Shown here piece by piece: positions 2,184 to 64,000 of a DNA stretch of 64,000 nucleotides (positions within the stretch are counted from its first letter, which is position 1; every line of letters begins with the position of its first letter). Below the pieces are notes generated by a model that worked only from the letters and a program-made list of their open reading frames with translations, searched no databases and was not told where the DNA came from. Location: positions 52,471,568 to 52,535,567 of the forward strand of contig CM034533.1 in NCBI GenBank assembly GCA_020002185.1, written 5' to 3'. The stretch is from Paraescarpia echinospica. Its lineage: Eukaryota > Annelida > Polychaeta > Sabellida > Siboglinidae. Made by a program: the position numbers and the translations under genes.

Positions 2184-2184
2184 C

Positions 2185-7574: not shown

Positions 7575-7603
7575 AACAAGATTTAACAAGATTTAACAAG
7601 ATT
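7575..7603 (-). repeat. 3' tail of LINE copy A
   Basis: Three tandem units of aacaagattt (plus strand) end the element. Copy B ends in one unit of the same motif (about 41662-41675). CR1-group LINEs typically end in short tandem repeats rather than poly(A). Confidence 0.8.
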
Positions 7604-7679
7604 GCCATCCAGAGAATTAACTCTAGATGGCAGGTGGACAAGGAAGCCCTTTGGCTTATCGAGAGTCCAACCCTTTTAT

Positions 7680-10107
7680 CTACATATATCCAGCCCTTCT
7701 GAGGTATGTGTCGATTTTATTTTTAAACATATTCACACTACTAGCACCCACACAATCATCAGATAATCTGTTCCATTCATTCACCGTCCTTTGTGAAAAT
7801 GAGAACTTTCTCACGTCTAATCTACACTGCTCCTTTACTAATGTAACTTCATGTCCTCTAGTCTTTCTATCTTTCTTAACTGAAAAAAACATATTTCTAT
7901 CAATATTTTCATAACCATTCAATATTTTAAACACTTCTATCTGATCTCCTCTCAATCTCCTGGTCTCTAGTGTTGTTAAACCACATTCTTTTAGGCGTTT
8001 TTCATAACTAAGATCCCTCAGTTTTGGTATCATTTTAGTCGCTCTCCTCTGTACTCTTTCTAGCATATCTATGTCCTTCTTGCGGTATGGCCTCCACGCT
8101 TGTATACAATATTCTAAATGAGGCCTAACTATTGTTTTGTACAGCGGTATTATTAGTTCTTTTTCTTTATATGCTATATTTCGCCTAATCAATCCAAGGA
8201 TTTGATTTCCTTTTGAAGCTGCAATTCCACACTGCTCTGAAACCTTCATGTCAGCACTAATTGTCAGCCCTAAGTCTTTTTCTTTTACAGTAGTATTTAG
8301 TACAGTTCCCCCCATTGTATATTCTACATATTCGTTCCCATGTCCTGTGTGGAGGCATTTACATTTCCCAAAATTGAACAACATTTGCCACTTTTCAGAC
8401 CATTTGATCATCCTGTCAAGATCATCTTGTAAATGCTGTCTATCTCCATCACTTTTAATCCTTCTAAACACTTTTGTATCATCTGCAAATTTCAACACCT
8501 TGCTAGCTATATCATCGTCCAAATCGTTTATATATATTAAGAATAATATAGGTCCCAGTACTGATCCCTGTGGAACCCCACTCAAAACTGATTTCCAGTT
8601 TGAAGCCTCCCCATCAACATTTGTTCTACAATTTCCACTAGTAGTTTGGGTGGAATACCATCCACTCCAGGTGATTTATTTTCCTTCTCATAGCCCTAAT
8701 TTTCTTAGCTACCATTTCTGGGGTTACAATTAACTGTCTTAAATAGTCTGATTCTGCCCCCTTGAACTTAGCCTCTGGTACTGGCAGTGAACTAGTGTCT
8801 TCTCTGAACTAAAATACTCATTTAGGTCTTCAGCCATTAAGAATCCTTCTGATATTATATTTCCAGCACTATCTTCTAGAGGACCGACCTTATCCTGAAC
8901 TTTCTGTTTGCTTCGAACATACGCATAAAAAAACTCTTGCTGTCATGTTTTATATTACTAGCTAATTGTTGTTCATAGCTTCTCTTTGAATTTCTAATTT
9001 CAGCTGTAGCTTGGTTTAGTGCTTCTTTATAAATGTTGTAGTCTTCGTCATTGCCAGTACGTCTATAAGCCTTCCACATCATTTGTTTATACTTAATTTT
9101 TCTAATGGCTTCTTTCGATAAGTATTTCTTTCTGGTCCGTTTCCCTTGTTTTTGAAGGGAACAAATTTATCTACGATGCACTCTATTTCATTCTTTAAGA
9201 TATTCCAGCATTCTGTTGCTGTCTTATTCTTCAGTGTATTATTCCAGTCTATCTTTGCTAAATATTTCCTCATTTCCTTATATCTTCCTTTGTGGAAATT
9301 TCTCCTCAACTGCTTTTTATTATTTCTTTCTGATTTTACTTTGATGGTAAAATGTATCTGGTTGTGATCACTACTTCCCAGAGGCTCACATAATTTAACA
9401 TTGTCAACTAATTCATTCTGTGAGGACAAAACTAAGTCTAACACATTCTCTCCCCTGGTTGGTTCTAGCACATGTTGAGAAAGGAAACTATCTTGTACTA
9501 AAACTAAAAACTTGTGGTCCTCACTACCCATACCCTGTAGAGATTTCCATTTTATATGCCCATGGTTAAAATCCCCCATAATAACACAGTCCCGTTTGCT
9601 CACTTCCTTTATAGCGTTTTGTATTTTTTCATTCTCTTCTATGCTTATGTTTGGACTTCGATAAACTAATCCAACCGTTAACGTTGAGTTTCCTGTAACT
9701 ATGTTACACCAAACAGCTTCTTCGCAATCTGCTTCTCTGTCTAATTTTATTTCATAAGCCTGGATAGATTCTTTAATATATAAAATAACTCCACCTCCCC
9801 TTCTTCCTATTCTATCTTTCCTAAACATTACATATCCTGTCAGTCCCAATTCGGCATCTGATATATCGGTGGTTGCCCATGATTCGGTTATACCTATTAT
9901 GTGAGGGTCAATATCTTCTACCATAATGTTTAGTTCATTTCTTTTGTTTACTATACTCCTTGCATTTAAACAAACACATTTATACCCAGCTTCAGAACAG
10001 TTTTCCAGACTGTTCTTTGCTGAATTATTTTTGCTGCCTTTATCTATGCCTCCAGTTTCAGGCTTCTCTGCGAGTCCCCCCTGCGAATTTAGTTTAAATA
10101 GATGCAA
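7680..10107 (-). pseudogene. LINE copy A ORF2: endonuclease + reverse transcriptase, broken
   Basis: The first 342 codons (10107-9079) form an apurinic-type endonuclease with LNARSI, GITESW, YRSPN, MGDFNH and SSDHNQ, which include the expected catalytic Asn, Glu, Asp and His positions. A frameshift near 9130 and another near 8930 follow. A deletion near 8615 then joins the linker directly to the middle of the reverse transcriptase. The last 301 codons (8585-7680) keep GVPQGSVLGP, FADDTK and the thumb. ORF2 starts 19 nt before the ORF1 stop, in the -1 frame. The product would nick DNA and reverse-transcribe element RNA. This copy cannot do so. Confidence 0.9.
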
Positions 10108-11491
10108 CCTGTCCCACTGTCAACAGATCGCAGCAGATTCTCTGAGAATACTGCTGCCCCCTTTCCACTTAGATGGAGGCCATCTCTCATGTACATATCT
10201 TCTCTCCCAACAAAGTACCCCCATAAATCTAGGAATCCCACGCCCTCTTCCTCACACATCTGCTCAACTAGTGCGTTGATCGCCATCCTCTTACAGTTTC
10301 TGTATCTTGCCCCCCTTCCTCCCATTACTGGCAAAATTCCTGAGAGAATAACCTGTTCCACTCTTGTCTTCTTTAGCTTCCTCACTAGATGTCTGTACTT
10401 CTGAACTATACCAGTTGTTCCCTCCTTGTCTGCATTGTTTGTCCCAACGTGTACTAGTATAGACCCTCCCTTGCCATGCCCCAATACCTTCTCTACCCTT
10501 TCGGTCACATGCTCTATCCTAGCCCCCGGTAGACATACAACAACGTCCTTCCCCTCGCATATAGTCTTGTCTGTTTTTCTCAGAATTGAATCGCCCATAA
10601 ACACTCTCTCTTTTCTCCTTGCCCCCTCAATCACTGCCTCGGAGTAGCTCCTCCGGTTTGCATATGTCTGGTTGTTGTCTTTTCCTCTTGTCGTCTTCTC
10701 TCCTGTCACATTCTCTTCCATTCCCTTCTTTCCTGTCGCGTTTTCTCTTGTCCCCTTTCCTCCTGTCATCTTCTCTTCTAGCACATTTACTCTCACTTCC
10801 TTTCGTCCCTTCTTCTTTCCTCCCATCACATTTTCTTCTCTCCTCTCCCGTCCCTTTTCCCCGGCTACCTCCTTCACTACGGTCACTTTCTCCCCTGTCA
10901 CCTTCACGCCTGTCATGTTTTCTGTTTTTTGCTGAACACTCTGTCTTCTTCCATCAGTCTTCTGTCTCACAGTCTTACCAACTGCCTCTGTTGTATCTAC
11001 CTCTTCACCACCTGTATCGCTGTCGTGTCTCTCCTCGTTCTCTACAGTCTGACTACCTGCTGATCTATCCCCACTGGCCCGTTTTCTTTTCCTCTGCCGA
11101 ACACTTTTCCTCCGTCCCTCTGTTTTCTCAATGTCTTGTTCCTTCACACCGGTCACCTTCCTTCCTCTCAGTCTCCTTTCTTCAGTCTCCGTGTCACAAC
11201 TCTGCTCCTTCCGTGTTGTAGAATTCTCAACTCTCTCCGCGCCATCCCTCTCTGCTCCATCTATTTCTATGTTGAGTCTCGCCTCCATCTCCTTCACTAT
11301 ATCCGTCAACTTACACACCTCCTTCATCAGACATTCCACCCTCAAACACCCCATACACCGAAATGTGAATCCGTCATCTTTGGTCTCTGCCCATGATTTT
11401 GGACAGCCAGACAACGCAAAATCCACCCAGCTCTGGCAGTCGTTGCAAACTAGGTGCGTTTTGCCCTGAGTTGCCGCTTGCAAGGTGCCAT
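10089..11491 (-). pseudogene. LINE copy A ORF1: zinc-finger + SGNH esterase-like protein
   Basis: The ATG at 11491 opens MAPCKRQLRA, but one base is missing about 11 codons later compared with copy C. The remaining open frame of about 464 codons begins with a PHD-like Cys-rich finger (HLVCNDCQSW .. CMGC). A long, low-complexity charged linker follows, rich in V/T/G/E/K/R. The last part is an SGNH hydrolase-like domain with MGDSIL (nucleophile Ser), HVGTNN (Gly/Asn block) and DGLHLSG (Asp-x-x-His). Esterase-type ORF1 proteins are known in CR1-group LINEs, where they may bind RNA or lipids. The exact role is unproven. Confidence 0.85.
10092..10098 (-). promoter_or_regulatory. Candidate -1 frameshift site (TTTAAAC), copy A
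   Basis: On the minus strand the ORF1 codons TAT TTA AAC TAA contain T TTA AAC in the phase required for -1 slippage, immediately before the stop. Slipping would enter ORF2 (TTT AAA CTA). The same heptamer and phase occur in copy B at 38738-38744. No strong downstream pseudoknot is obvious by eye. Confidence 0.5.
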
Positions 11492-11528
11492 ATCAGAATT
11501 TATTTATGTTCAAAGTATTTTTTTATGT

Positions 11529-11691
11529 AGTCTTTGAAAAGACTTTTCTGTGTACAATTTACACCAGATTGTTTAAGTTATAGTTAGTTATATTTTTAAC
11601 ACACAGTGACACACCGTGCCTTACCTAGTTACGATGTCGATGACAATGTATTCAAGTTAGGCTTAGATACAAGGTAGTCTTTACAAAGACT
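11529..11691 (-). repeat. Paired hairpins in LINE copy A 5' UTR
   Basis: Two short palindromes of the form AGTCTTT-NN-AAAGACT lie at 11529-11544 and 11676-11691, each preceded on the element strand by GTACACAG. Copy C has both (62684-62699 and 62536-62551) and copy B has one (37713-37728). Confidence 0.7.
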
Positions 11692-12055
11692 GTTTCCTGT
11701 GTACTATTATACACTTTAAAAGATTGTTATTTCAGGTTTTAATTACTAATCTAACTACACAGATTATCTCAAATAACGCTATTCTATTGTCGTTCACGGT
11801 ACGCTAACTTCGCCAGTGACCTACTTTGTAAACAACGTTCCGATTACATTAACGTCCCCAATTATCGCTCGCAAATCGCCTACTTTTAATCTACCCTAGA
11901 TTACTCCCTCTAGCTAACTTTTAAAAAAAAATGTTGCTTAATATATATCTATAATTACGTTATGTATGCTATACGCTCAATAATATCACTTATCTTGATC
12001 AAATATCCTTATATTTTCGCAAGTTTGCTGCACCAAATTCAAATCAATTCACCAC

Positions 12056-35662: not shown

Positions 35663-35947
35663 GGTTTGTTGCACCATGCATGGGTGTAAGCCTTGGTTTG
35701 TTGCACCATGCATGGGTGTAAGCCTTGGTTTGTTGTGCCATGCATGTGTGTAAGCCTTGGTTTGTTGCACAATGCATGGGTGTAAGCGTTGGTTTGTTGC
35801 GCCATGCACGGGTGTAAGCCTTGGTTTGTTGCGCCATGCATGGGTGTAAGCCTTGGTTTGTTGCGCCATGCATGGGTGTATGCCTTGGTTTGTTGCGCCA
35901 TGCATGGGTGTAAGCCTTGGTTTGTTGCGCCATGCATGGGTGTAAGC
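35663..35947. repeat. 32-bp minisatellite, about nine copies
   Basis: The unit begins ggtttgttgcgccatgcatg and ends ggtgtaagcctt. It repeats head-to-tail with a few substitutions and no spacers, inside intron 3 of the integrase-derived gene. The open frames it creates on the minus strand are artefacts. Confidence 0.95.
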
Positions 35948-37018: not shown

Positions 37019-37180
37019 TGTCGTAGTATTACGCGCTTTAGTTTGACCTCATTATACTAGAGGTTAGAGTTCAGTTGTTCACGTGTTGGGCTTTGATTAA
37101 ACATCCATTCCTTCTAACGTGTCTTGTAGTAAACTGTCATGTAATGGCTATTATCAGTACATCCAAACAACACAACAACA
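37019..37180 (+). repeat. 5' LTR of gypsy element
   Basis: It starts TGTCGTAGTATTACGCG and ends CACAACAACA, and differs from the 3' LTR at three positions near its end. The LTR would carry promoter and polyadenylation signals for the element. Confidence 0.95.
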
Positions 37181-37200
37181 TGGTGGCAGCGACGAGATCA
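37181..37200 (+). other. Putative primer-binding site
   Basis: tggtggcagcgacgagat follows the 5' LTR directly. A TGG start is complementary to the CCA end of a tRNA. I could not assign the tRNA. Confidence 0.5.
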
Positions 37201-37712
37201 AACTAATGGCGGCGGTAACGTATTGACACTGAAATCGTGAACTTTGAATCAACTGATGAGTGAAAAATATGTCTTTATTCACCGTGCCTGAAATGTGTTC
37301 AAAAGAATCACGCGCAACATGAATGACGTCACTCGACAGCCGCGTCGGGATCAAAGGTCACGTCACATGCAAATGGATAGCTACGTGTAAACAACAGAGA
37401 CATTCAGCCTTCTGTAATTTTTGCCGGGACTCATAAAAGCGGTCTGGCTGGCTAGCAATTGAACACTGTTGCAGTCTGTTGTTATAGCTAGGCGTACTTG
37501 CTAGATATTTTGATTAGGTAGCATTGTTGTTAAAATTAAGCAAGGGCGATAGTCGGGCGGCATAACCTAAATAAATAAAGCAGCCTAAGTTAATGTAATT
37601 GATTGTATTTAAATTAGGTCACTACCGGTAATGTTAGCGTTCGTGTCAGGATAAATAGTTGGCTGTGTAATTGAAATTTGTAACCTAAAGTGTGCTGTAG
37701 TACACAGGAAAC

Positions 37713-37728
37713 AGTCTTTATAAAGACT
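37713..37728 (+). repeat. Hairpin in LINE copy B 5' UTR
   Basis: agtctttataaagact, a perfect palindrome preceded by gtacacagg, matches the paired hairpins of copies A and C. Confidence 0.7.
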
Positions 37729-37765
37729 AAGTTAGTTAAGTTATTAAATAAATTCTGATCGGGAT

Positions 37766-38747
37766 ATGGCGCCTTGCAAGCGGCAAGTCAAGGCAAAGCG
37801 TCACTTGGTGTGCGATCACTGCCACAGCTGGGTATATTTTGCATTGTCCGGGTGTGGAAAGTCATGGGCAGAAAACATGGAGGAAGGATTCACCTTTCAG
37901 TGCACTGGGTGTTGGAAGGTGGAGTGTTTGCAGAAGGAGATAGTTAGGTTGACAGATATTGTGATGGGAATGGAGATGGGAATTAGCAAGGAGGCAGGTC
38001 GAATGGAGAGAGACGACAGGGAGAGAGGTGAGATTACTACAAGACTGAAGGAGAATAGCAGTGGCAAGAAAACTGAGGAAAGGAGATTGAGAGGAGGGAA
38101 GGTGATTGGAGGGGAAGAAATTGGAAAATCGACAACAGAAAACGTGACAAGCGTGAAGGTGACAGGGAAGAAAGTGACCGTAGAGAAGGAGGGAGGGAAG
38201 ATGGGAAGGGAGAGGAGAGAGGAAAGAGAGGGTGTTTATGGGCGACTCCATTATGAGAAAGACGGACAAGGCACTGAGCGAGGGGAAGGACATCGTTGTT
38301 TGTTTACCGGGGGCTAGGATTGAACATGTAACTGACAGGGTAGAGAAGGTATTGGGACATGGCAAAGGGGGGTCTATACTGGTACATGTAGGAACAAATA
38401 ATGCAGACAGGGAGGGAACAACTGCGATAGTACAGAAGTATAGACAGTTAGTGAGGAAGCTAAAGAAGACGAGAGTTGAACAGGTTATTCTGTCAGGAAT
38501 TTTGCCAGTAATGGGAGGAAGGGGGGCAACGTATAGAAACTGTAAGAGGATGGCGATCAACGCACTAGTTGAGCAGATGTGTGACGAAGAAGGGGTGGGA
38601 TTCACAGATTTATGGGGATACTTTGTTGGGAGGGAAGATATGTACATGAGAGACGGCCTCCATTTTAGTGGAAAGGGTGCAGCAGTTTTCTCAGAGAACC
38701 TGCTGCGATCTGTTGACAGTGGGACAGGTTGTATATATTTAAACTAG
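37766..38747 (+). pseudogene. LINE copy B ORF1: zinc finger + SGNH domain, frameshifted
   Basis: The ATG at 37766 begins MAPCKRQVKAKRHLVC. The PHD-like finger is intact (CDHC .. CTGC). The charged linker is shorter than in copies A and C. A frameshift near 38225 separates it from the SGNH domain (MGDSIM, HVGTNN, DGLHFSG), which ends at the stop 38745-38747. As in copy A, the stop overlaps the start of ORF2 by 19 nt. Confidence 0.88.
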
Positions 38748-41570
38748 ATTCGCAGGGGGTACTCACAGAAAAGCCTGAAAATGGAGGCATAGATAAAGAC
38801 GGCACAAATAAATCAGCAAATAACAGTCTGGAAAACTCTTCTGAAGCTGGATATAAATGTGTTTGTTTAAATGCAAGGAGTATAGTAAACAAAAGAAATG
38901 AACTAAACATTATGGTAGAAGATATTGACCCTCATATAATAGGTATAACCGAATCCTGGACCACCACCGATATATCAGATGCTGAATTGGGACTGACAGG
39001 ATATGTAATGTTTAGAAAAGATAGAATAGGAAGAAAGGGAGGTGGAGTTATTTTATATATTAAAGAATCTATTCAGGCTTATGAAATAAAATTAGAAAGA
39101 GAAGCAGATTGCGAAGAAGCTATTTGGTGTAACATAGTTACAGGAAACTCAACGTTAACAGTTGGGTTAGTTTATCGAAGTCCAAACATAAGCATAGAAG
39201 AGAATGAAAAAATACAAAACGATATAAGGTAAGTAAGCAAACGGGACTGTATTATTATGGGGGATTTTAACCACAGGCATATACAATGGAAATCTCTACA
39301 AAGTATGGGGAGTGAGGACTACAAGTTTTTAGTTTTAGTTCAAGATACTTTCCTTTCTCAACATGTGCTAGAACCAACCAGGGGTGAGAATGTGTTAGAC
39401 ATAGTTTTGTCCTCACAGAATGAATTAGTTGACAATGTCAAGATATGTGAGCCACTGGGGAGTAGCGATCATAACCAGATACATTTTACCATCAAAGTAA
39501 AATCAGAAAGGAATAGTAAAAAGCAGTATAGGAGAAATTTCCACAAAGGAAGGTATAAGGACATGAGGAAATATTTAGCAAAGATAGACTGGAATAACAC
39601 ACTGAAAAATAAGACGGCAACAGAATGCTGGAATATATTAAAGAGTGAAATTAAGTGCATAGTCGATAAATTTGTACCCTTCAAAAAACAAGGAAAACGG
39701 TCCAAAACAAAACACTTATCGAAAGAAGCCATTAGAAAAATTAAGTATAAACAAATGATGTGGAAGTCATATAGATGTACTGGAAATGATGAAGACTACA
39801 ACATTTATAAAGAAGCACTTAATCAAGCTACAGCTGAAATTAGAAATTCAAAGAGAAGCTATGAAAAAAAATTAGCTAGTAATATAAAACATGACAGTAA
39901 GAGTTTTTATGCGTATATTCGAAGCAAACAGAAAGTTCAGGATAAGGTCGGTCCTCTAGAAGATAGTGCTGGAAATACAATATCAGAGGGATTCTTAATG
40001 GCAGAAGACCTGAATGAGTACTTTAGTTCAGTGTTTACCAGGGAAGATATTAGTTCACTGCCAGTACCAGAGGCTAAGTTCAAGGGGCAGATTCAGACTA
40101 TTTAGGACAATTAATTGTAACCCCGGAAATGGTAGGTAAGAAAATAAGGGCTATGAAGGATAATAAATCACCTGGAGTGGATGGTATTCCACCCAAACTA
40201 CTATTGGAAATTGTAGAACAAATTAGCATACCGCTTGCAACAGTTTTCAACTTGTCATTAGAAGAGGGAGTGGTTCCTTTAGAATGGAAAGAAGCAAACA
40301 TTATACCGTTATTCAAAAAAGGTTCGAGAAACAAGTCAGAGAACTATAGACCAGTGAGTTTAACATCAGTGACTTGTAAATTATTAGAAAGACTAATTAA
40401 AGATCACATGGTGGATTTTCTTGTTAAACAAAACTTGATTAACCCATCTCAACATGGTTTTTTTAAAGCGAGGTCATGCTTAACAAATGTGTTATGTTTT
40501 TTGGAAGACATCACTAAGTGGGTAGATGAGGGATCACCAGTAGATATCGTCTACTTAGATTTTCAAAAAGCTTTCGACAAAGTACCACATCAAAGATTAC
40601 TGCTTAAACTAAAGGCCAATGGCATAGGAAATGGTATAATAAACTGGATAGAACAATGGCTGATTGACAGAAGACAACGCGTAGTAGTTGATGGGGAGGC
40701 TTCAAACTGGAAATCGGTATTGAGTGGGGTACCACAGGGATCAGTATTAGGACCTATATTATTCTTAATATATATCAACGATTTGGATGATGAAATAACA
40801 AGCAAGGTGTTGAAATTTGCGGATGATACAAAAGTGTTTAGAAGGATTAAAAGTGATGGAGATAGACAGCATTTACAAGATGACCGTGACAGGTTGATCA
40901 AATGGTCTGAAAAGTGGCAAATGCTGTTCAATTTTGGGAAATGTAAATGCCTCCACACAGGACATGGGAACGAAGAGGTAGAATATACAATGGGGGGTAC
41001 TGTACTAAGTACTACTGTAAAAGAAAAGGACTTAGGGTTAACCATTAGTGCTGATATGAAGGTTTCAGAGCAGTGCGGAAATGCAGCTTCAAAGGGAAAT
41101 CAAATCCTTGGATTAATTAGGCGAAACATAACGTATAAGGAAAAAAAGCTAATAATACCGCTGTACAAAACAATAGTTAGGCCTCATTTAGAATATTGTA
41201 TTCAAGCGTGGAGGCCATATCGCAGGAAGGACATAGATATGCTAGAAAGAGTGCAGAGGAGAGCAACTAAAATGATACCAAAACTGAGGGATCTTAGTTA
41301 CGAAATACGCCTAAAAAATGCGGTTTAACAACACTGGAGACCATATTGAAGGGTTATGAAAATATTGATAGAAATATTTTTTTCTCAGTTAAGAAAGATA
41401 GAAGGACTAGAGGACATGAACTTACATTGGCAAAGGAGCAGAGTAGATTGGATATAAGAAAGTTTTCATTTTCACAAGGGACTGTAAATGAATGGAACAG
41501 ATTACCTGCTGATTGTGTGGGTGCTAGTAGCGTGAATATGTTTAAAAATAAAATCGACATACCTCAGACG
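38729..41570 (+). pseudogene. LINE copy B ORF2: endonuclease + reverse transcriptase, broken
   Basis: The endonuclease (38840-39480) has LNARSI, GITESW, YRSPN, MGDFNH and SSDHNQ. The reverse transcriptase (about 40129-41330) has NYRPVSL, HGFFKARS, LDFQKAFDKVPH, GVPQGSVLGP and FADDTK, then the thumb to about 41570. Breaks relative to copy A are an in-frame TAA at 39230-39232, a one-base loss in a G run near 40086, a one-base loss near 41312, and about 35 bp missing near 41342. Confidence 0.92.
38738..38744 (+). promoter_or_regulatory. Candidate -1 frameshift site (TTTAAAC), copy B
   Basis: The zero-frame codons are TAT TTA AAC TAG. The heptamer T TTA AAC abuts the ORF1 stop and ORF2 lies in the -1 frame, as in copy A, although the flanking bases differ (TAG versus TAA stop). 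Confidence 0.5.
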
Positions 41571-41811
41571 GGCGGGATACACATAGATAAAAGGGTCGGA
41601 CTCTCGATAAGCCAAAGGGCTTCCTTGTCCACCTGCCACCTAGAGTTAATTCTCTGGGTGGCAATCTTGTTAAATATAACCCATATTGCCATAGTTATAA
41701 CTCACCGGGGCTCATTAAAGCAGCCTGGCTGATAGTTTTAAGCTACACAATTTATAAGACACAGCTAACACGCTACTAGTAGGTGCGAATTGGCTAACAA
41801 CAACAGCGAAC

Positions 41812-44128
41812 ATGGATCACGTACCAAGAATGGATTGGTCAGTGGAAAATCAAGCAGAAACATTCAAGTTATTTAAACAACGACTTGAATTATACTTCAA
41901 AGCAAAGCGAATTGAGGAAGGAGAACAAGTAGTACACATTCTACAACAAGTCGGCGATGAAGGACTACGCCGATACAACTCTTGGAGCCTCACAGAAGAG
42001 GAAAGGAAAGATCCTACCAAGATATTCGCCAAATTCGTTGAACAACTTGAGCCGTGTGAGAACTATCGCATCAGCCGGTTACGACTTATGCACTACCGTT
42101 AAAGGCCAGAAGAAAACTTAGATTGTTTCATAAACAGATGCAAGTTGCTAGCTCTGAAATGCGAGTTTCAAGATAACGAATTGAATGAGCGACTCAATGA
42201 ACTGATCATAGCTGGTACGCCAATTTCTGATTACCAGAAGGAATTGCTTGGAAAAAACAAGAACTACACACTGGACGAAGCAATTCAGTTGGGACGAGCG
42301 TATGAAGCGAGTGCCTCCCACGTCTAGCAGATTCGTGACATGGGAACAGTGGCGACAACTGCGGTGCATAGCTTCAGACGTGGTGCAAACTCATCCGCCA
42401 AATGTCGCAACTGTGGTCAACAACACCCATTCAAACAGCGTGAAAGTTGTCCAGCGTTTGGAGTCAAGTGCAGAGCGTGCGGCAGAATGAACCACTGGGC
42501 GAAATGTTGTCTGACTAAGAAAAAACAGCATGCCAACAACATCACGCCACATCAGCGCGGACGTTCGAAATCCAGGAACAGGAACGAGCATCGGCAACGA
42601 CAACATTCGTATGCAAACGAGAAGTCAATTCATCAAATGCGTTCCAATGCACAGAACACTGACACACTTGAACAGTCATTTGATGCACTCAGTTTTCATG
42701 ATGTGAAGGTGTCAGCAATGTGTCTCGGACAATATAATCGCGACGAAGCCTATGCGCAGGTGCAAATTAAACTGAGCAATCGTCCTGGCATCCACAATTT
42801 GAGCCTGAAAGTGGACACAGGCGCACAAGGCAATACACTTCCACTGCGAACATTTCGACGCATGTATCCGGACAAGTTAAATGCTGAGGGGTTCCCCGTT
42901 GATAACATCGTCGCAGCAGCAAGAGGCGCACGATTGACGACGTACAATGGCACGTCCATCACATGCCATGGCGTGGTTAACATTTCATGCAGCTACAACA
43001 AGTCGGCATGGGGTGACACTCGGTTCTACATCGTTGATATAACCGGCCCTGCAGTGATTGGTCTTCAGTCGTGTGAAAAGTTGAAGCTGGTGACTCTACA
43101 TTGCACCATCAAGACGCACTCCTCAACAGAAGATAGACCTGCTACGGGACAATCAGCTGTCACGAGCACAGCCTCTATAAACAGCGTTGATGACATCACT
43201 AGAATGTATCCAGAACAGTTTGACAGAATCGGCTGTTTTCCTGGTGAAGTGAAGTTGGTGGTGGATCCCGCAGTTCCTCCTCGCGTGAATCCTCCAAGAA
43301 AGACACCAATTGCGCTAAAAGATGCTATCAAAAGCAGTCTTGACTCCATGGTGGAAAATGACGTCATACGCAAAGTGCACGAGAATGAGCCAACAGAGTG
43401 GGTCTCAAGCCTGGCATATGCAAAGAAAAAAGATGGGAGCCTAAGAATATGTTTGGACCTCAAGTTCTTGAATCAGGCACTGAAGAGACCGCACCACAAA
43501 ATTCCTACGTTGGAAGAACTTAATCACAAGTTCACAGGAGCAAGATATTTCTCCAAACTTGACGCCAAAGCCGGATACTGGGGTGTCCAGCTTCACAAGG
43601 AGTCTCAACTCCTCATTACGTTTCAATCTCCTTACGGTCGATATGCCTTCAAGCGACTTCCATTCGGCTTGTCTGCATCACAAGACATTTTTCAATCCAG
43701 GATGGACATGATTCTCGAGCAGTGTGATGGAGCATAGGGAATCGCTGACGACGTGGTGGTTTACGGTGCCACAGAAGATGAACATGACAGAAATCTTCAT
43801 CAACTCATGAACGTTGCGTCGAGGAACGGGCTTGTCTTCAATTCCAGCAAGTGCCTGATCAAGGAGAGCAGTGTCAGTTTCTTTGGCCTCATCTACGGCA
43901 TCGATGGCATCAAACCTGATCCGGACAGGATCCGCGATCTGCAAGACATACCACCACCTCGAGACAAGAAAGAGCTTCAGCAGTTTCTTGGACTCATGAC
44001 CTTCTTGAGCCCATTCATACCGAACTTGGCTGACAAGGCTTCAATGCTTCGAGATCTACTGAAAGAAGACAGCATGTTCATGTGGGAACCGCACCATCAA
44101 AGTTGCTTCTATGGTCTGAAACATCTTG
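41812..44128 (+). pseudogene. Gypsy gag-pol, 5' part (Gag, protease, RT)
   Basis: A single frame runs from the ATG at 41812, with Gag and Pol fused without a shift. Gag carries capsid-like sequence and two Cys knuckles (CRNC .. CP and CRACGRMNHWAKCC near 42469). The aspartic protease has DTGA at 42814. The reverse transcriptase spans about 43300-43990, with LDAKAGYWGVQL, RLPFGLSASQDIFQ and the catalytic IADD at 43741-43752 (usually YADD or FADD). In-frame stops occur at 42100-42102, 42325-42327 and 43735-43737, the last just before the catalytic motif. The frame is cut at 44128 by the palindromic insert. Confidence 0.93.
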
Positions 44129-45661
44129 AGTAGTAATAGAGGTTAAGTACCGCGCATGGTTTCCGTTTTTCCGTCGGAGCAGGAGCAAAAGTAGTTCCGG
44201 CTCCATGTTAAAGGATAGGGAAGTACCCGGATGTTGCTCCTTGCTCCAGCCAACGGAAAACGGAGAGATTATGCAAATGAGGGTATACCAGCAGCCTCTG
44301 CGCGGTCTGCGATTGACCAATCACGAGCGAGCTGGGCATTGTGGGCGTGGCTAATTATGCAAATGACCTTATATGGTCAATATGGGCGTGGCTAGTTATG
44401 CAAATGAGCTTGGAAAAGTATTTCCCATGTTAAACATAGAGAATTTTCACCCCATGTTAAAGCATAGGTCATTTTATCGCAAAGGTATCCGACCACTTTT
44501 CGAATTTTCTCCATGTTAAAGCATAGGGAATTTTTTCACATGTTAAAGCATAGGAGGTATTATCGTAAAGGTATCCGACGACTTTTTGAATAAAATAAAA
44601 TATACCAAACAGCATTTGAATATGTCACACACGAGATTGCTTGGCCCGTAGGCCGAGGCTCCGACAAGGGACCGAGCCCTTATTTGTTTGACTATAACAT
44701 GTCGAAAATGTGGTGTTATAATAAGGCGTAATGTGTAACAAAAGGGTTATAAATTCAACGGAGACCGTTTTGTCTGAAGTAATGTATACGAAATGTAGAC
44801 TACATATAGGACTATGTTATATCAGAACCTATAGCCTCGTTTTTTCGAACAGAGCGGACATCTTGAAATTATACGTTTGGTGTCTGTTACAAAACCGTAC
44901 TCGAGACGTGTCTGGACATGTTTGTTTGTTTTGTTGCGAGCACGCGCATCCTGTGTGACGTCACCAAACTGCTACGCACAGTAATTTTGTACCCGAGGTT
45001 GACTTGGTTAATCAGATAGTGCTTTGGTTAGCCACTGTTTTGAGCTTTCGTGCTTGAATATAATCCCATCATTTGATGTTATGATCATTGTCGTTATAGC
45101 GAGTGAAAAATTACCCTGTTAACTGGTATGAACCGGTATGAACTCGTAATGACTGCTCTGTGACTGTGTTGGAAGAACATCTCGATATTTGGCCCGTGAT
45201 AAAACATACGAGATACCAGTATTTGTTATACGAGATTTGTACTTACCAACCGTTGATATACTGTTTGTAAACTGTTTTGATGGTGTATTCCCTGTTCAAA
45301 TCTCATCTATTTAAATAAACACGCTATGCGCGATGCACAATGTCGACTCGGTGGCCTTGACACCAAAGATCCTATATCAATGCAAGACGGTGCAGTGCTC
45401 GCTTTCTACATTGTTCGAGGAAAGTGAAGCGTCATGTTAGAACAGTACAGTAATAACCTCCCAGATCAGATGTACCAGTATTTATATAGTTTACCGTATT
45501 AAGGGTCAAGTGTACAAATGTCCATTAGAACGTTTTTTTAAATCTTTTTTCGTACTATAGTATTTAAATTCGTGCTTCTTCGGTAAAACCTTCCAAACTT
45601 GCTTCTGTCGTAAAACAACTAACCTGGCATGGGAAACCGAAAACGAACTCATAGATTCAAC

Positions 45662-45850
45662 AGTTATGTTAACCACTTATGTCTATGTGTAGTTCAGTAC
45701 AGATACGGTAACCACTTATGTCTGTGTAGTTCAGTACAGTTATGTTAACCACTTATGTCTGTGTAGTTCAGTACAGTTATGTTAACCACTTATGTCTGTG
45801 TAGTTCAGTACAGTTATGTTAACCACTTATGTCTGTGTAGTTCAGTACAG
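45662..45850 (+). repeat. 37-bp tandem repeat, five copies (left arm)
   Basis: The unit is ttaaccacttatgtctgtg followed by tagttcagtacagttatg. The right arm has four copies (48886-49037). This accounts for most of the length difference between arms. Confidence 0.92.
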
Positions 45851-45865
45851 AGATGTTAATGTACT

Positions 45866-46290
45866 CAGACCAACTAGTGGTGCAAACGAAACACTATGCT
45901 TTGACCAACACACGGCACGAATCGAACTCAGACCAACTAGTTGGACAAACGAAACAGAAACTTAACCGATTACACTGCACTAATTGAACTCAGACCAACT
46001 AGTTGCGTAAACGAAACAGAAACTTAACCGATTACACTGCACGAATTGAACTCAGACCAACTAGTTGCGTAAACGAAACAGAAACTTAACCGATTACGCT
46101 CCACAAATTGAACTCAGACCAACTAGTTGTACAAACGAAACACTATGCTTTGACCAACACGTATCACGAATTGGACTTAGATCAACTAGTTGGACAAACG
46201 AAACACTATGCTTTGACCAACACGTGTCACGAAAACGAAACACTATGCTTTGACCAACATGTGTCACGAATTGAACTTAGATCAACTAGA
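45866..46290 (+). repeat. About 60-bp tandem repeat family in insert
   Basis: Units contain gaccaactagttg, caaacgaaac and cacgaattgaact, in long and short variants. Related units recur at 46810-47090 and 47260-47350, and inverted at 48440-48870. Confidence 0.85.
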
Positions 46291-46308
46291 CACATCACAC
46301 GAGACTAT

Positions 46309-46809
46309 GGTTGAGATATGTCACGAGACTTCGGATGACACGTCATACGAGAGTAGCAACGAGACACGAGACGAGACTATGTCACGAGACTACGGATGAC
46401 ACATCACACGAGACTACGGATGACACATCACACGATACTATGGCCGAGATATTTCACGAGACTTCGGATGACACATCATACGAGAGTACCGACGAGACTA
46501 TGACCGAGATATGTCACGAGACTACGGATGACACAGCATACGAGAGTACCGACGAGACAAGAGACGAGACTATGTTACGAGACTACAGATGACACATCAC
46601 ACGAGACTACGGATGACACATCACACGAGAGTACCGACGAGACAAGAGACGAGACTATGACCGATATATGTCACGAGACTTCGGATGACACGTCACACGA
46701 GAGTACCGACGAGACAAGACACGAGACTATGACCGAGATATGTCACGAGACTACGGATGACACATCACACGAGACTACGGATGACACATCACACGAGAGT
46801 ACCGACGAG
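46309..46809 (+). repeat. 24-bp satellite (HETTDDTS frame), left
   Basis: The unit cacgagactacggatgacac plus atca repeats with variants such as gagagtaccgacgagac. One frame stays open and would encode repeated HETTDDTS and HESTDETR. Related units recur at 47093-47262 and inverted at 47931-48430. The frame is kept by the multiple-of-three unit, so it need not be a gene. Confidence 0.85.
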
Positions 46810-47930
46810 ACACGAGTTGTACAAACGAATCACTATGCTTTGACCAACACGTGTCACGAATTGAACTTATACCAACTAATGGGACAAACGAAACACTATG
46901 CTTTGACCAACACGTGTCACGAATTGAACTTAGACCAACTAGTGGGACAAACGAAACACTAAACTTAGACCAACACGTCGCACGAACCAAACTATAGACA
47001 CGAGTTGCACAAATGTAACACTAGACTTAGCCCAACAGGTTGCACGAACCAAACTATAGACACGAGTTGCACAAACGTAACACTAGACTTAACCGAGATA
47101 TGTCACGAGACTACGGATGACACGAGACTACGGATGACACATCACACGAGAGTACCGACGAGACAAGAGACGAGACTATGACCGAGATATGTCACGAGAC
47201 TACGGATGACACATCACACGAGACTACGGATGACACATCACACGAGAGTACCGACGAGACACGAGTTGTACAAATGAAACACTATGCTTTGACCAACACG
47301 TGTCACGAATTGGACTTAGATCAACTAGTTGGACAAACGAAACACTAATCTTAACGTGTTATCGTATCAAACCCCTCCTTTTTTAGGAAAATAGACGTGT
47401 TATTGCGTCAAATCCCTCCTTTTTCAGGAAAATAGACGTGTTATTGCGTCAATTCCTTCCTTTTTCAGGAAAATAGACGTAAAATCGCGTCAATTCCTTC
47501 CTTTTTCAGGAAAATAGACGTGTTATCGCATCAAATCCCTCCTTTTTCAGGAAAATAGACGTTATCGCGTCAATTCCTTCCTTTTTCAGGAAAATAGACG
47601 TGTTATCGCGTCAATTCCTTCCTTTTTCAGGAAAATAGACGGGTTATCGCGTGAGATTTGCTTCAGAAGCAAAGCAAAGCAAATAGACGGGTTATCAAAG
47701 CAAGGCAAAGCAAATAGACAGGTTATCACCAAAGCAAATAGACGGGTTATCAAAGCAAAGCAAAGCAAATAGACAGGTTATCGTCAAAGGAAGCAAAGCA
47801 AAGCCACTCACTCACCCTTCGTGTCTGTTCACTCACTCACTCACTCACTCACTCACTCACCCTTCGTATCTGTTCACTCACTCACTCACTCACTCACCCT
47901 TCGTATCTGTTCACTCACTCACTCACTCGT
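46810..47930. repeat. Central spacer of the insert, all satellite
   Basis: In order it holds about 60-bp units, 24-bp units (47093-47262), a minisatellite of roughly 41 bp with aggaaaatagacgtgttatcg and ttccttcctttttc (47354-47650, about seven copies), units of caaagcaaagcaaatagacg (47660-47800), and (ACTC)n with cccttcgtatctgttc (47805-47935). No single-copy core is visible. Confidence 0.9.
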
Positions 47931-50560
47931 CGGTACTCTCGTGTGATGTGTCATCCGTAGTCTCGTGTGATGTGTCATCCGTAGTCTCGTGACATATCTC
48001 GGTCATAGTCTCGTGTCTTGTCTCGTCGGTACTCTCGTGTGACGTGTCATCCGAAGTATCTTGACATATATCGGTCATAGTCTCGTCTCTTGTCTCGTCG
48101 GTACTCTCGTGTGATGTGTCATCCGTAGTCTCGTGTGATGTGTCATCCATAGTCTCGTAACATAGTCTCGTCTCTTGTCTCGTCGGTACTCTCGTATGCT
48201 GTGTCATCCGTAGTCTCGTGACATATCTCGGTCATAGTCTCGTCGGTACTCTCGTATGATGTGTCATCCGAAGTCTCGTGAAATATCTCGGCCATAGTAT
48301 CGTGTGATGTGTCATCCGTAGTCTCGTGTGATGTGTCATCCGTAGTCTCGTGACATAGTCTCGTCTCGTGTCTCGTTGCTACTCTCGTATGACGTGTCAT
48401 CCGAAGTCTCGTGACATATCTCAACCATAGTCTCGTGTGATGTGTCTAGTTGATCTAAGTTCAATTCGTGACACATGTTGGTCAAAGCATAGTGTTTCGT
48501 TTTCGTGACACGTGTTGGTCAAAGCATAGTGTTTCGTTTGTCCAACTAGTTGATCTAAGTCCAATTCGTGATACGTGCTGGTCAAAGCATAGTGTTTCGT
48601 TTGTACAACTAGTTGGTCTGAGTTCAATTTGTGGAGCGTAATCGGTTAAGTTTCTGTTTCGTTTACGCAACTAGTTGGTCTGAGTTCAATTCGTGCAGTG
48701 TAATCGGTTAAGTTTCTGTTTCGTTTACGCAACTAGTTGGTCTGAGTTCAATTCGTGCAGTGTAATCGGTTAAGTTTCTGTTTCGTTTGTCCAACTAGTT
48801 GGTCTGAGTTCGATTCGTGCCGTGTGTTGGTCAAAGCATAGTGTTTCGTTTGCACCACTAGTTGGTCTGAGTACATTAACATCTCTGTACTGAACTACAC
48901 AGACATAAGTGGTTAACATAACTGTACTGAACTACACAGACATAAGTGGTTAACATAACTGTACTGAACTACACAGACATAAGTGGTTACCGTATCTGTA
49001 CTGAACTACACATAGACATAAGTGGTTAACATAACTGTTGAATCTATGAGTTCGTTTTCGGTTACCCATGCCAGGTTAGTTGTTTTACGACAGAAGCAAG
49101 TTTGGAAGGTTTTACCGAAGAAGCACGAATTTAAATATTATAGTACGAAAAAAGATTTTAAAAAACGTTCTAATGGACATTTGTACACTTGACCCTTAAT
49201 ACGGTAAACTATATAAATACTGGTACATCTTATCTGGGAGGTTATTACTGTACTGTTCTAACATGACGCTTCACTTTCCTCGAACAATGTAGAAAGCGAG
49301 CACTGCACCGTCTTGCATTGATATAGGATCTTTGGTGTCAAGGCCACCGAGTCGACATTGTGCATCGCGCATAGCGTGTTTATTTAAATAGATGAGATTT
49401 GAACAGGGAATACACCATCAAAACAGTTTACAAACAGTATATCAACGGTTGGTAAGTACAAATATCGTATAACAAATACTGGTATCTCGTATGTTTTATC
49501 ACGGGCCAAATATCGAGATGTTCTTCCAACACAGTCACAGAGCAGTCATTACGAGTTCATACCGGTTCATACCAGTTAACAGGGTAATTTTTCACTCGCT
49601 ATAACGACAATGATCATAACATCAAATGATGGGATTATATTCAAGCACGAAAGCTCAAAACAGTGGCTAACCAAAGCACTATCTGATTAACCAAGTCAAC
49701 CTCGGGTACAAAATTACTGTGCGTAGCAGTTTGATGACGTCACACAGGATGCGCGTGCTCGCAACAAAACAAACAAACATGTCCAGACACGTCTCGAGTA
49801 CGGTTTTGTAACAGACACCAAACGTATAATTTCAAGATGTCCGCTCTGTTCGAAAAAACGAGGCTATATGTTCTGATATAACATAGTCCTATATGTAGTC
49901 TACATTTCGTATACATTACTTCAGACAAAACGGTCTTCGTTGAATTTATAACCCTTTTGTTACACATTACGCCTTATTATAACACCACATTTTCGACATG
50001 TCATAGTCAAACAAATAAGGGCTCGGTCCCTTGGCGGAGCCTCGGCCTACGGGCCAAGCAATCTCGTGTGTGACATATTCAAATGCTGTTTGGTATATTT
50101 TATTTTATTCAAAAAGTCGTCGGATACCTTTACGATAATACCTCCTATGCTTTAACATGTGAAAAAATTCCCTATGCTTTAACATGGAGAAAATTCGAAA
50201 AGTGGTCGGATACCTTTGCGATAAAATGACCTATGCTTTAACATGGGGTGAAAATTCTCTATGTTTAACATGGGAAATACTTTTCCAAGCTCATTTGCAT
50301 AACTAGCCACGCCCACATTGCCCATATAAGGTCATTTGCATAATTAGCCATGCCCAGCTCGCTCGTGATTGGTCAATCGCAGACCGCGCAGAGGCTGCTG
50401 GTATACCCTCATTTGCATAATCTCTCCGTTTTCCGTTGGCTGGAGCAAGGAGCAACATCCCGGTACTTCCCTATCCTTTAACATGGAGCCGGAACTAGTT
50501 TTGCTCCTGCTCCGACGGAAAAACGGAAACCATGCGCGGTACTTAACCTCTATTACTACT
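47931..50560 (-). repeat. Right inverted arm of the palindromic insert
   Basis: About 2.63 kb, the reverse complement of the left arm. It ends at ctattactact|atcttg, where the target duplication begins. Differences from the left arm are scattered substitutions and small indels. Confidence 0.92.
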
Positions 50561-52328
50561 ATCTTGTCACCTCAAGGTTAATACATCAACGTGTCCAAAA
50601 CGCCCATACTTCAGACAGACGCTAATCTCCTTGGACTTGGCGCGGCGTTACTTCAAGAGAACGAGTCTGGTGTAATCCAACCGGTGGCATACGCATCGAA
50701 GAGTCTATCAAGCGCAGAGAAACGATATGCCTGCATTGAGCGAGAGTTGCTAGCCATTGTTTTTGGCACACAGCGGTTCCACACGTACCTATACGGACGC
50801 AAGTTCAAGGTCGTCACGGACCACAAGCCTCTCGTTGTGATCATCCAGAAAGGTCTTGTCAACTCTCCACCGCGACTACAAAGAATGCTCCTCAAACTGC
50901 AAGGGTATGACATGGAAGTTGAATACCAACCAGGAAAGGACATTGTCCTTGCGGACACACTCTCGCGTCTTCCAAGTACGCACAACACAGAAACGACCGA
51001 CCTTGATGTTCGTGTTGACTTCGTCAGATTCTCTGATGAACGCGTCCAAGAGCTGAGGAACAAGACGAAGGCTGATCCAGTTCTCCAAGCACTCTCCGAA
51101 ACGATCGTGACTGGATGGCCCGAAACAATAAAGGAGTTGCCAACTAGCATCCGTTCGTACTGGTCGTTCCGCAATGAACTCTCCGTGGAAGATGGTATCC
51201 TACTGAAAGGAACACGAGTCGTCATTCCTGAGAGCATGCAGACATTCATACTGGAGAAACTACACTACGGTCACCTCGGCAAAGAGAAGACGAGACTCAG
51301 AGCAAAAGACTCTGTGTATTGGATCAACATCAATCGTGACATTGAGACTACAGTCAAGTCGTGTGACATCTGTCAAGAACACCAACCAGCGCAGCAGCAC
51401 GAGACGCTACAGCCGCACGAAGTACCGAGTAACCTTGGGAAGTGGTTGGTACAGACATGTTGTTCTTCAACGACGCAGACTGGCTCATCATTGCGGACTA
51501 CTATTCAAAATTTCCCATCGTGCGCAAAATGCCGAAGCCATGTCGTTTCTGTCACAAAGCAGATCTTCAGCGAGACGCGTTCCTATGCGTGTCGTGTCGG
51601 ACAATGGCCCGCATTTCGCCAGTGCATGCTACACAGACCTGTCAAAGAAGATGGCATTCCAACACGTAACGTCTTCGCCGAGGTATCCACGCTCAAACGG
51701 CTTCATCGAACGCCAAATCCAAACCGTGAAGCATGTCATGAAGAAGGCGAGGCAAAGTGAGCAGGATCTCGACTTGGCGCTACTGTGTCTGCGAACAACG
51801 CCAATTGATAGCAAACTTCCAAGTCCAGCAGAGCTCCTCAATGGTCGCAAATTACAGTCAACTCTTCTGACGAAAATCGTTGACACACGCCAAGATCATG
51901 ACGATATGAGAAAGAGGCTACAAGAGCGACAGGACAAGATGACGTTTCAGCACGATCAACACGCAAGAGATCTCCCGCCTCTGCACAACGGTCAAGCAGT
52001 TCGCTTCCGTGATCAAGACGGCCGGTGGAGACCTGCGACGGTCCTTGACAAAACACCGAATCCAAGATCGTACATTCTCACGACACCGAGCACAAGCACT
52101 ATCCGAAGAAACAGAAATCAAATCCGAGACAACTCGACTCACCCGATCATCAGGAGAATATCGTTTGCCAGTCCGACTACAGTCCAGCCCGCTCCAGCTG
52201 TTGTGGATTCAACTACTCCCAAGAAGACTACAGACGGCTCGGCTGAGAACATTGTTCAAAATAATACAACTGGACCATATGTGACCCGCTCTGGTCGTCA
52301 TATTAAGCAGCCTCAGCGCTATGCATGA
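50561..52328 (+). pseudogene. Gypsy pol, 3' part (RNase H, integrase)
   Basis: This continues the frame cut at 44128 after the duplicated atcttg, with an in-frame TAA at 50579-50581. RNase H spans about 50591-50980 (TDANLLGLGAALLQ, EKRYACIERELLAI, VVTDHKPL). Integrase follows with the zinc module (HYGHLG .. CDICQ, 51265-51380) and a DDE core (GTDMLFF, SDNGPHF, GFIERQ). The frame shifts near 51438 and again near 51545, breaking the core. The C-terminal tail (RPATV .. YVTRSGRHIKQP) ends at a TGA at 52326-52328. Confidence 0.93.
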
Positions 52329-52473
52329 ATAGATACAAAGACTGTAAGCAAGGCATACTGTATAGCTTATAGCAGAGTTAAATCTATTGCATGTTGTTAT
52401 TTTACAAGTTTACAGTTATTTCAGAGACTTTATAACAAGTTACTTTGAGTAAGTCATAATCTCTTCTTTTGTA

Positions 52474-52483
52474 AAAAGGGAGA
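52474..52483 (+). other. Polypurine tract of gypsy element
   Basis: aaaaagggaga lies directly before the 3' LTR start TGTCG, the expected plus-strand primer. Confidence 0.75.
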
Positions 52484-52645
52484 TGTCGTAGTATTACGCG
52501 CTTTAGTTTGACCTCATTATACTAGAGGTTAGAGTTCAGTTGTTCACGTGTTGGGCTTTGATTAAACATCCATTCCTTCTAACGTGTCTTGTAGTAAACT
52601 GTCATATAATGGCTGTTATCAGTGCATCCAAACAACACAACAACA
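52484..52645 (+). repeat. 3' LTR of gypsy element
   Basis: 162 bp, TGTCG..ACAACA, identical to the 5' LTR except at three sites. Confidence 0.95.
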
Positions 52646-62445: not shown

Positions 62446-62506
62446 GTAAATCTAATGCAGCATTTGTTCTATGGTTTAAAAAATGAGTTGAACACTGCTT
62501 GTTAAT

Positions 62507-64000
62507 TTTAAAGTGTATAATAGTACACAGGAAACAGTCTTTGTAAAGACTACCTTGTATCTAAGCCTAACTTGAATACATTGTCATCGACATCGTAACT
62601 AGGTAAGGCACAGTGTGTCACTGTGTGTTAACAAATATAACTAACTATAACCTAAACAATCTGGTGTAAATTGTACACAGAAAAGTCTTTTCAAAGACTA
62701 CATAAAACTACTTTGAACATAAATAAATTCTGATATGGCACCTTGCAAGCAGCAACTCAGGGCAAAACGACACCTAGTTTGCAACGACTGCCAGAGCTGG
62801 GTGGATTTTGCATTGTCTGGCTGTCCAAAATCATGGGCAGAGACCAAAGATGACGGATTCACATTTCGGTGTATGGGGTGTTTGAGGGTGGAATGTCTGA
62901 TGAAGGAGGTGTGTAAGTTGACGGATATAGTGAAGGAGATGGAGGCGAGACTCAACATAGAAATAGATGGAGCAGAGAGGGATGACGCGGAGAGAGTTGA
63001 GAATTCTACAACACAGAAGGAGCAGAGTTGTGACACGGAGACTGAAGAAAGGAGACTGAGAGGAAGGAAGGTGACCGGTGTGAAGGAACAAGACATTGAG
63101 AAAACAGAGGGACGGAGGAAAAGTGTTCGGCAGAGGAAAAGAAAACGGGCCAGTGGGGATAGATCAGCAGGTAGTCAGACTGTAGAGAACGAGGAGAGAC
63201 ACGACAGCGATACAGGTGGTGAAGAGGTAGATACCACAGAGGCAGTTGGTAAGACTGTGAGACAGAAGACTGATGGAAGAAGACAGAGTGTTCAGCAAAA
63301 AACAGAAAACATGACAGGCGTGAAGGTGACAGGGGAGAAAGTGACCGTAGTGAAGGAGGTAGCCGGGGAAAAGGGACGGGAGAGGAGAGAAGAAAATGTG
63401 ATGGGAGGAAAGAAGAAGGGACGAAAGGAAGTGAGAGTAAATGTGCTAGAAGAGAAGATGACAGGAGGAAAGGGACAAGAGAAAACGCGACAGGAAAGAA
63501 GGGAATGGAAGAGAATGTGACAGGAGAGAAGACGACAAGAGGAAAAGACAACAACCAGACATATGCAAACCGGAGGAGCTACTCCGAGGCAGTGATTGAG
63601 GGGGCAAGGAGAAAAGAGAGAGTGTTTATGGGCGATTCAATTCTGAGAAAAACAGACAAGACTATATGCGAGGGGAAGGACGTTGTTGTATGTCTACCGG
63701 GGGCTAGGATAGAGCATGTGACCGAAAGGGTAGAGAAGGTATTGGGGCATGGCAAGGGAGGGTCTATACTAGTACACGTTGGGACAAACAATGCAGACAA
63801 GGAGGGAACAACTGGTATAGTTCAGAAGTACAGACATCTAGTGAGGAAGCTAAAGAAGACAAGAGTGGAACAGGTTATTCTCTCAGGAATTTTGCCAGTA
63901 ATGGGAGGAAGGGGGGCAAGATACAGAAACTGTAAGAGGATGGCGATCAACGCACTAGTTGAGCAGATGTGTGAGGAAGAGGGCGTGGGATTCATAGATT
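62507..64000 (+). mobile_element. CR1-like LINE, copy C (runs off the window)
   Basis: From about 62507 the sequence follows copy A's 5' UTR almost base for base, including hairpins at 62536-62551 and 62684-62699, then ORF1. It starts later in the 5' UTR than copy A, so it is slightly 5'-truncated. It sits 60 bp after the donor of the BTB exon. Confidence 0.93.
62735..64000 (+). pseudogene. LINE copy C ORF1, one frameshift, incomplete at window end
   Basis: The ATG at 62735 opens MAPCKQQLRAKRHLVC with an intact PHD-like finger and linker to about 63470. There a run of G is one base shorter than in copy A and shifts the frame. After that the SGNH domain (MGDSIL near 63626, HVGTNN near 63776) continues in another frame to the window edge. 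Copies A and C are broken at different places. Confidence 0.88.

Follow-up and report, generated by a model that had tools for sequence, protein, structure and literature searches.

A 64,000-nucleotide window of the genome of the siboglinid annelid Paraescarpia echinospica (assembly GCA_020002185.1, contig CM034533.1, positions 52,471,568 to 52,535,567 of the forward strand) contains, at 44129-50560, a palindromic element of 6432 bp that is probably a non-autonomous, gene-less transposon with a Polinton/Maverick end signature, most likely inserted by a Polinton-type integrase acting in trans. The element has a characteristic end motif, is bracketed by a 6-bp duplication, lies within a Gypsy element, consists largely of two near-identical 2.6-kb arms, and holds no recognisable gene. 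Coordinates are those of the window (Table 1).

Analysis of the termini confirmed the exact boundaries of the element. It opens with AGTAGTAATAG and closes with the exact reverse complement of this sequence; the perfect complementarity extends over the terminal 62 bp on each side. Exact matches to the 11-bp AGTAGTAATAG occur in the window only at these two ends; allowing one mismatch adds two further sites, with 1.23 matches expected in all. The copies of ATCTTG adjoining the two ends are identical; for 6-mers drawn at random from the window, the probability that two agree is 0.00037. The window contains 123 pairs of AGTAGT and ACTACT separated by 100-25,000 bp, and this element alone among them is flanked by a 6-bp duplication. 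Alignment of the arms revealed 20 substitutions in 2635 aligned bases (99.24% identity) and two indels, one of 9 bp at about 44339 and one of 37 bp, the length of one satellite unit, inside the 37-bp array. A separate repeat search recovered the same inverted pairs as three blocks (I1, 1481 nucleotides; I2, 1087; I3, 211; 99% each). The initial annotation of this locus had described a perfect atcttg duplication around a segment whose end is the exact reverse complement of its start, as well as near-identical arms of about 2.6 kb, and all of this holds. Its treatment of the arms as a plain terminal repeat needs correction: each arm comprises an outer stretch of some 1.5 kb, preceding the long satellite arrays, and three satellite arrays.

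The termini carry the end signature described for Polintons. Among the end motifs of vertebrate Mavericks, (AGT)2//(ACT)2 is the most frequent; intact copies have duplications of 6 bp, and element ends were placed, among inverted-repeat candidates, by the motif together with a perfect 6-bp duplication (PMC8097293). A Polinton duplication length of 6 bp is also given elsewhere (PMC10045372), and rve integrases typically leave duplications of this size (PMC12220804). With ATCTTG on both sides and AGTAGT//ACTACT at its ends, the element carries the first of the two signatures considered, (AGT)2//(ACT)2 and (AG)3//(CT)3, both of which are known from vertebrate Mavericks and may not be those of this host. 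The Polinton-type termini proposed initially can thereby be stated more specifically, as the (AGT)2//(ACT)2 motif combined with a duplication of 6 bp. A retroviral-like (rve) integrase, presumably of Polinton type and supplied in trans, would recognise such ends and join them to staggered target DNA, leaving the 6-bp duplication; AGTAGT ends might also permit a full Polinton's pPolB to copy the element by protein priming.

The claim that the element lacks genes was borne out by its reading frames. A Pfam scan covered all 50 of the stop-to-stop frames of at least 50 amino acids that overlap the element. One of them, 43738-44133, comes from the reverse transcriptase of the adjoining Gypsy (E 1.4e-5; 25.3 bits, cut-off 29.6), and none of the remaining 49 reaches a curated Pfam cut-off. 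The best match below cut-off was to an Axin motif, over a seven-residue stretch of a satellite frame (E 0.0012, 19.1 bits versus 23), and we treated such scattered matches in satellite frames as chance matches in repetitive sequence. The frame at 46504-46962 (+) stays open for 152 codons from the 24-bp satellite into the beginning of the spacer and reads as a repeat rich in Thr, Glu, Asp and His, with no Pfam match better than E 0.2; as the unit length is divisible by three, this may be accidental.

Several points weigh against a Polinton origin. By Pfam, no pPolB, rve integrase, ATPase, protease or capsid gene is recognisable in these frames. Intact vertebrate Mavericks have inverted repeats of 46-1447 bp and lengths of 12.7-24.6 kb; the 2.6-kb arms exceed the former range and the 6.4-kb element falls short of the latter (PMC8097293). 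The end motif is taken from vertebrates and may not apply to the Polintons of this host. Duplications of 6 bp also occur in IS3EU and GingerRoot, and those of long terminal repeat (LTR) elements and retroviruses measure 3-6 bp (PMC10045372). The terminal 23-mer had no match in collections of viral contigs and prokaryote genome contigs, a result to be expected of the latter because they are prokaryotic, and no second copy, gene-bearing relative or empty allele was seen, the host genome as a whole lying outside the search. Because all Polinton genes are absent, we do not class the element as a Polinton proper. The proposal of a non-autonomous, satellite-bearing Polinton derivative stands as the best reading, while membership of the group, for want of the defining genes, stays putative.

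The element lies in the pol region of its host Gypsy, with reverse transcriptase to the left and RNase H and integrase to the right, and the two flanks represent separate portions of a single Gypsy element that run in the same direction. The 162-bp LTRs of the latter (37019-37180 and 52484-52645) show 3 differences, and no matching short duplication is obvious outside them (GTAAC on the left, GTTAT on the right). The host Gypsy contains a second insertion, LINE-like, at about 37.7-41.7 kb. If the two flanks are spliced together with a single copy of the duplication between them, the left frame runs on for some codons and the frames of the two sides disagree; the Gypsy copy itself is therefore degenerate, and its pol does not provide the exact empty-site reference that had been anticipated. 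In four Gypsy relatives the region of the insertion site is read through in one frame, as judged by eye. Among the best 120 of 441 relatives, the top matches reach 71-75% identity, and eight named by organism (a sea cucumber, a sea urchin, four molluscs, a gorgonian coral and a metagenome "bacterium") lie at 43-64%. Divergence of the LTRs (3/162) does not differ significantly from that of the arms (20/2635; Fisher p = 0.14), and we therefore claim no order of events beyond the nesting.

The distribution of differences between the arms bears on the origin of the palindrome. They are spread along the whole arm (0-4 per 200-bp bin): the outer 1522 aligned bases hold 14 of them and the satellite part holds 6. 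Apart from these 6 substitutions, a single 37-bp unit is all that separates the arms across some 1.1 kb of tandem repeats. Units within the arrays of the left arm are 69-100% alike, as compared for four 37-bp and four 62-bp units, the 24-bp array not being included. Since the arms are near-identical across the arrays despite this range, each was copied or homogenised as one block rather than being built up through independent amplification of satellites. The arms cease to match at GACGAG, partway through a 24-mer unit, and on the right side the sequence there passes into a GAGTGAGTGAG repeat. A template switch guided by short homology could plausibly have taken place at this point. That the palindrome breaks off inside the 24-bp array suggests a snap-back switch during protein-primed copying. 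Protein-primed replication begins at an end and proceeds inward; here it would switch template inside the 24-bp array and run back out along the complementary strand, yielding a product with two copies of one parent end and leftover satellite as spacer. We put forward such a switch in the 24-bp array, with copying back to the starting end, as a possible and still tentative origin of the palindrome. It is rather doubtful that the element as a whole is a snap-back (copy-back) defective Polinton genome, with both ends derived from one parent end, that was then integrated in trans. Template switches to the complementary strand that yield two copies of one end are known for defective virus genomes generally. 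A point on the other side is that the snap-back origin is read from one junction in one copy.

The shape of the element would also suit a foldback transposon of another cut-and-paste superfamily, of the Galileo/FB/Tetris type or undescribed, with coincidental AGTAGT ends and 6-bp duplications. Galileo and Tetris have the same architecture of long inverted arms, an outer domain, tandem repeats in the arms and a gene-less middle (PMC4079207, PMC3573991), and to this extent the new foldback class offered as an alternative in the initial annotation fits. As compared through these papers, however, target duplications measure 7 bp in Galileo and 8-10 bp in Tetris, against 6 bp here, and by a simple reckoning about 2 in 4096 random 6-bp ends would equal either of the two motifs common in Mavericks; we consider this explanation unlikely. 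The duplication length would agree with a derivative of IS3EU or GingerRoot, for which 6 bp is usual, but complete IS3EU families end in TA..TA and GingerRoot mostly in TA..TA and occasionally in TG..CA (PMC10045372), whereas the element has AGT..ACT, and such a derivation seems very improbable.

Two further explanations assign the palindrome to events other than snap-back copying. An ordinary Polinton might have become palindromic in place, by losing its genes and having one end inversely duplicated or converted after insertion. Such a rearrangement could also give an asymmetric spacer and arms that end within a satellite array, but both end motifs are intact and both target-site copies perfect, so it would need to have left the two outermost regions untouched, and we regard it as quite improbable. 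Long near-perfect palindromes are also a known artefact of some libraries, which counts in favour of a chimeric or hairpin read in the assembly. Against an artefact, the Gypsy flanks are distinct and in the same orientation, the 6-bp duplication sits exactly at the palindrome ends, the arms differ at 20 sites and by 2 indels, and the spacer is asymmetric, making this explanation most unlikely. We retain insertion of a gene-less element by a Polinton-type integrase as the probable account.

Table 1. Coordinates of the palindromic element, its repeats and its host within the 64,000-nucleotide window.
Feature	Position	Strand	Remark
Host Gypsy element	37019..52645	+	LTR pair; reverse transcriptase, RNase H and integrase domains
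Target-site duplication, left copy	44123..44128	+	ATCTTG; perfect match to right copy
Target-site duplication, right copy	50561..50566	+	ATCTTG; perfect match to left copy
Left end motif	44129..44134	+	AGTAGT; equals Maverick (AGT)2 motif
Right end motif	50555..50560	-	ACTACT on + strand
Left arm	44129..46809	+	2681 bp; pairwise alignment with reverse complement of right half
Right arm	47926..50560	-	2635 bp; pairwise alignment
Subterminal cluster, left arm	44269..44407	+	motifs TTATGCAAATGA, GGGCGTGGCTA, CC(A/T)6GG
TTATGCAAATGA in subterminal cluster	44269, 44355, 44396	+	three copies
GGGCGTGGCTA in subterminal cluster	44343, 44384	+	two copies
CC(A/T)6GG in subterminal cluster	44367	+	one copy
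86-bp direct repeat, left arm	44421..44591	+	two copies
86-bp direct repeat, right arm	50107..50277	-	two copies
37-bp satellite array, left arm	45660..45859	+	5.4 copies
37-bp satellite array, right arm	48876..49038	-	4.4 copies
62-bp satellite array, left arm	45863..46205	+	5.5 copies
62-bp satellite array, right arm	48521..48872	-	5.6 copies
24-bp satellite array, left arm	46383..46802	+	17.5 copies; arm ends at 46809 as last unit runs out
24-bp satellite array, right arm	47933..48352	-	17.5 copies
Asymmetric spacer	46810..47925	+	1116 bp; largely tandem repeats
Further 63-bp units in spacer	46808-47091	+	
Further 24-bp units in spacer	47117-47261	+	
41-bp array in spacer	47354-47652	+	
31-bp array in spacer	47667-47782	+	
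CACT-rich array in spacer	47805-47928	+	

Within the arms, the subterminal cluster of the left arm is mirrored in the right arm minus one GGGCGTGGCTA. By resemblance, its three motifs are candidate binding sites for POU, Sp/KLF and SRF-type factors. The sequence ATGCAAAT, chosen for counting after it had been noticed, is present in three copies within the first 310 bp of each arm, compared with eight copies in the 57,568 bases of the window beyond the element. Two subterminal motifs had no match in the viral contig collection. A 16-mer of the subterminal repeat matched six viral contigs, with a single occurrence each in the stretch examined, and was set aside as a chance finding. By eye, an outward-facing, splice-donor-like GGTAAGT is present in both arms (49451-49457, +; 45241-45247, -). 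A search of the rest of the window at E 1e-3, run with low-complexity filtering, turned up no other piece of the element, although simple satellites could escape such a search.

The remainder of the window carries further mobile and coding sequences. Three related LINE-like copies lie at 7591-11721 (-), 37745-41675 (+) and 62506-64000 (+); two of them are 99% identical over 1.5 kb, which suggests recent activity. Endonuclease and GDSL-lipase-like domains are present in the first two, and a reverse transcriptase domain was found in the copy at 37745-41675, in a scan that excluded the reverse-transcriptase frame of the first copy and the whole of the third. A second Gypsy-like integrase frame is located at 1002-2198 (-). 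A single-frame TIR-domain protein with a transmembrane-like stretch, as seen by eye, is encoded at 3003-3830 (+); it shares 62-74% identity with eight relatives and is perhaps of the Toll-like receptor kind. A 32-bp tandem array (8.9 copies, 94% matches) occupies 35663-35947. Neither Rfam at gathering thresholds nor ARAGORN with the bacterial code detected RNA genes in the window.

Foldback elements are mostly tied to cut-and-paste superfamilies. Galileo is one such case (PMC3573991). If the element described here is a foldback with Polinton ends, it would tie this shape to self-synthesising, virus-like transposons, suggest that Polinton machinery can mobilise gene-less passengers in trans, preserve a trace of how protein-primed Polinton genomes rearrange, and represent a carrier that spreads satellite arrays. 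Should the snap-back origin also hold, the element would be a transposon counterpart of viral panhandle defective genomes and would outline a route from Polintons to foldback elements and to the spread of satellites.

A palindromic gene-less Polinton was not encountered in the literature searched; Repbase and most subscription journals lay outside its scope and may hold non-autonomous Polinton entries. Nothing closer appeared in the excerpts of PMC2836005, PMC6431247, PMC4028283, PMC8268682, PMC12368964 and PMC12910113, one of which records that Tlr elements were once proposed as a non-autonomous Polinton derivative (PMC4028283). With Polintons/Mavericks the element shares 5'-(AGT)2//(ACT)2-3' ends, 6-bp target duplications and inverted terminal repeats, and it differs in having no recognisable Polinton genes, in being only 6.4 kb long, and in its 2.6-kb arms that hold satellites (PMC8097293). 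Long inverted repeats, for which the authors' filter ran from 100 bp to 8 kb, are also a feature of cryptophyte Polinton-like viruses, which in contrast measure 14-40 kb, carry capsid genes and reside in protists (PMC12220804). Galileo has very long, internally repetitive inverted repeats, and the first copies found consisted of these repeats only; besides its 7-bp duplications, it is set apart by a P-superfamily transposase (PMC3573991). Tetris of Drosophila virilis, whose transposase was not found by its authors, differs in its 8-10 bp duplications and in having one repeat type of about 220 bp, yet shares with the annelid element long inverted arms (up to 1,735 bp in Tetris) with an outer domain and tandem repeats, a gene-less middle, and satellite arrays borne by a transposon (PMC4079207).

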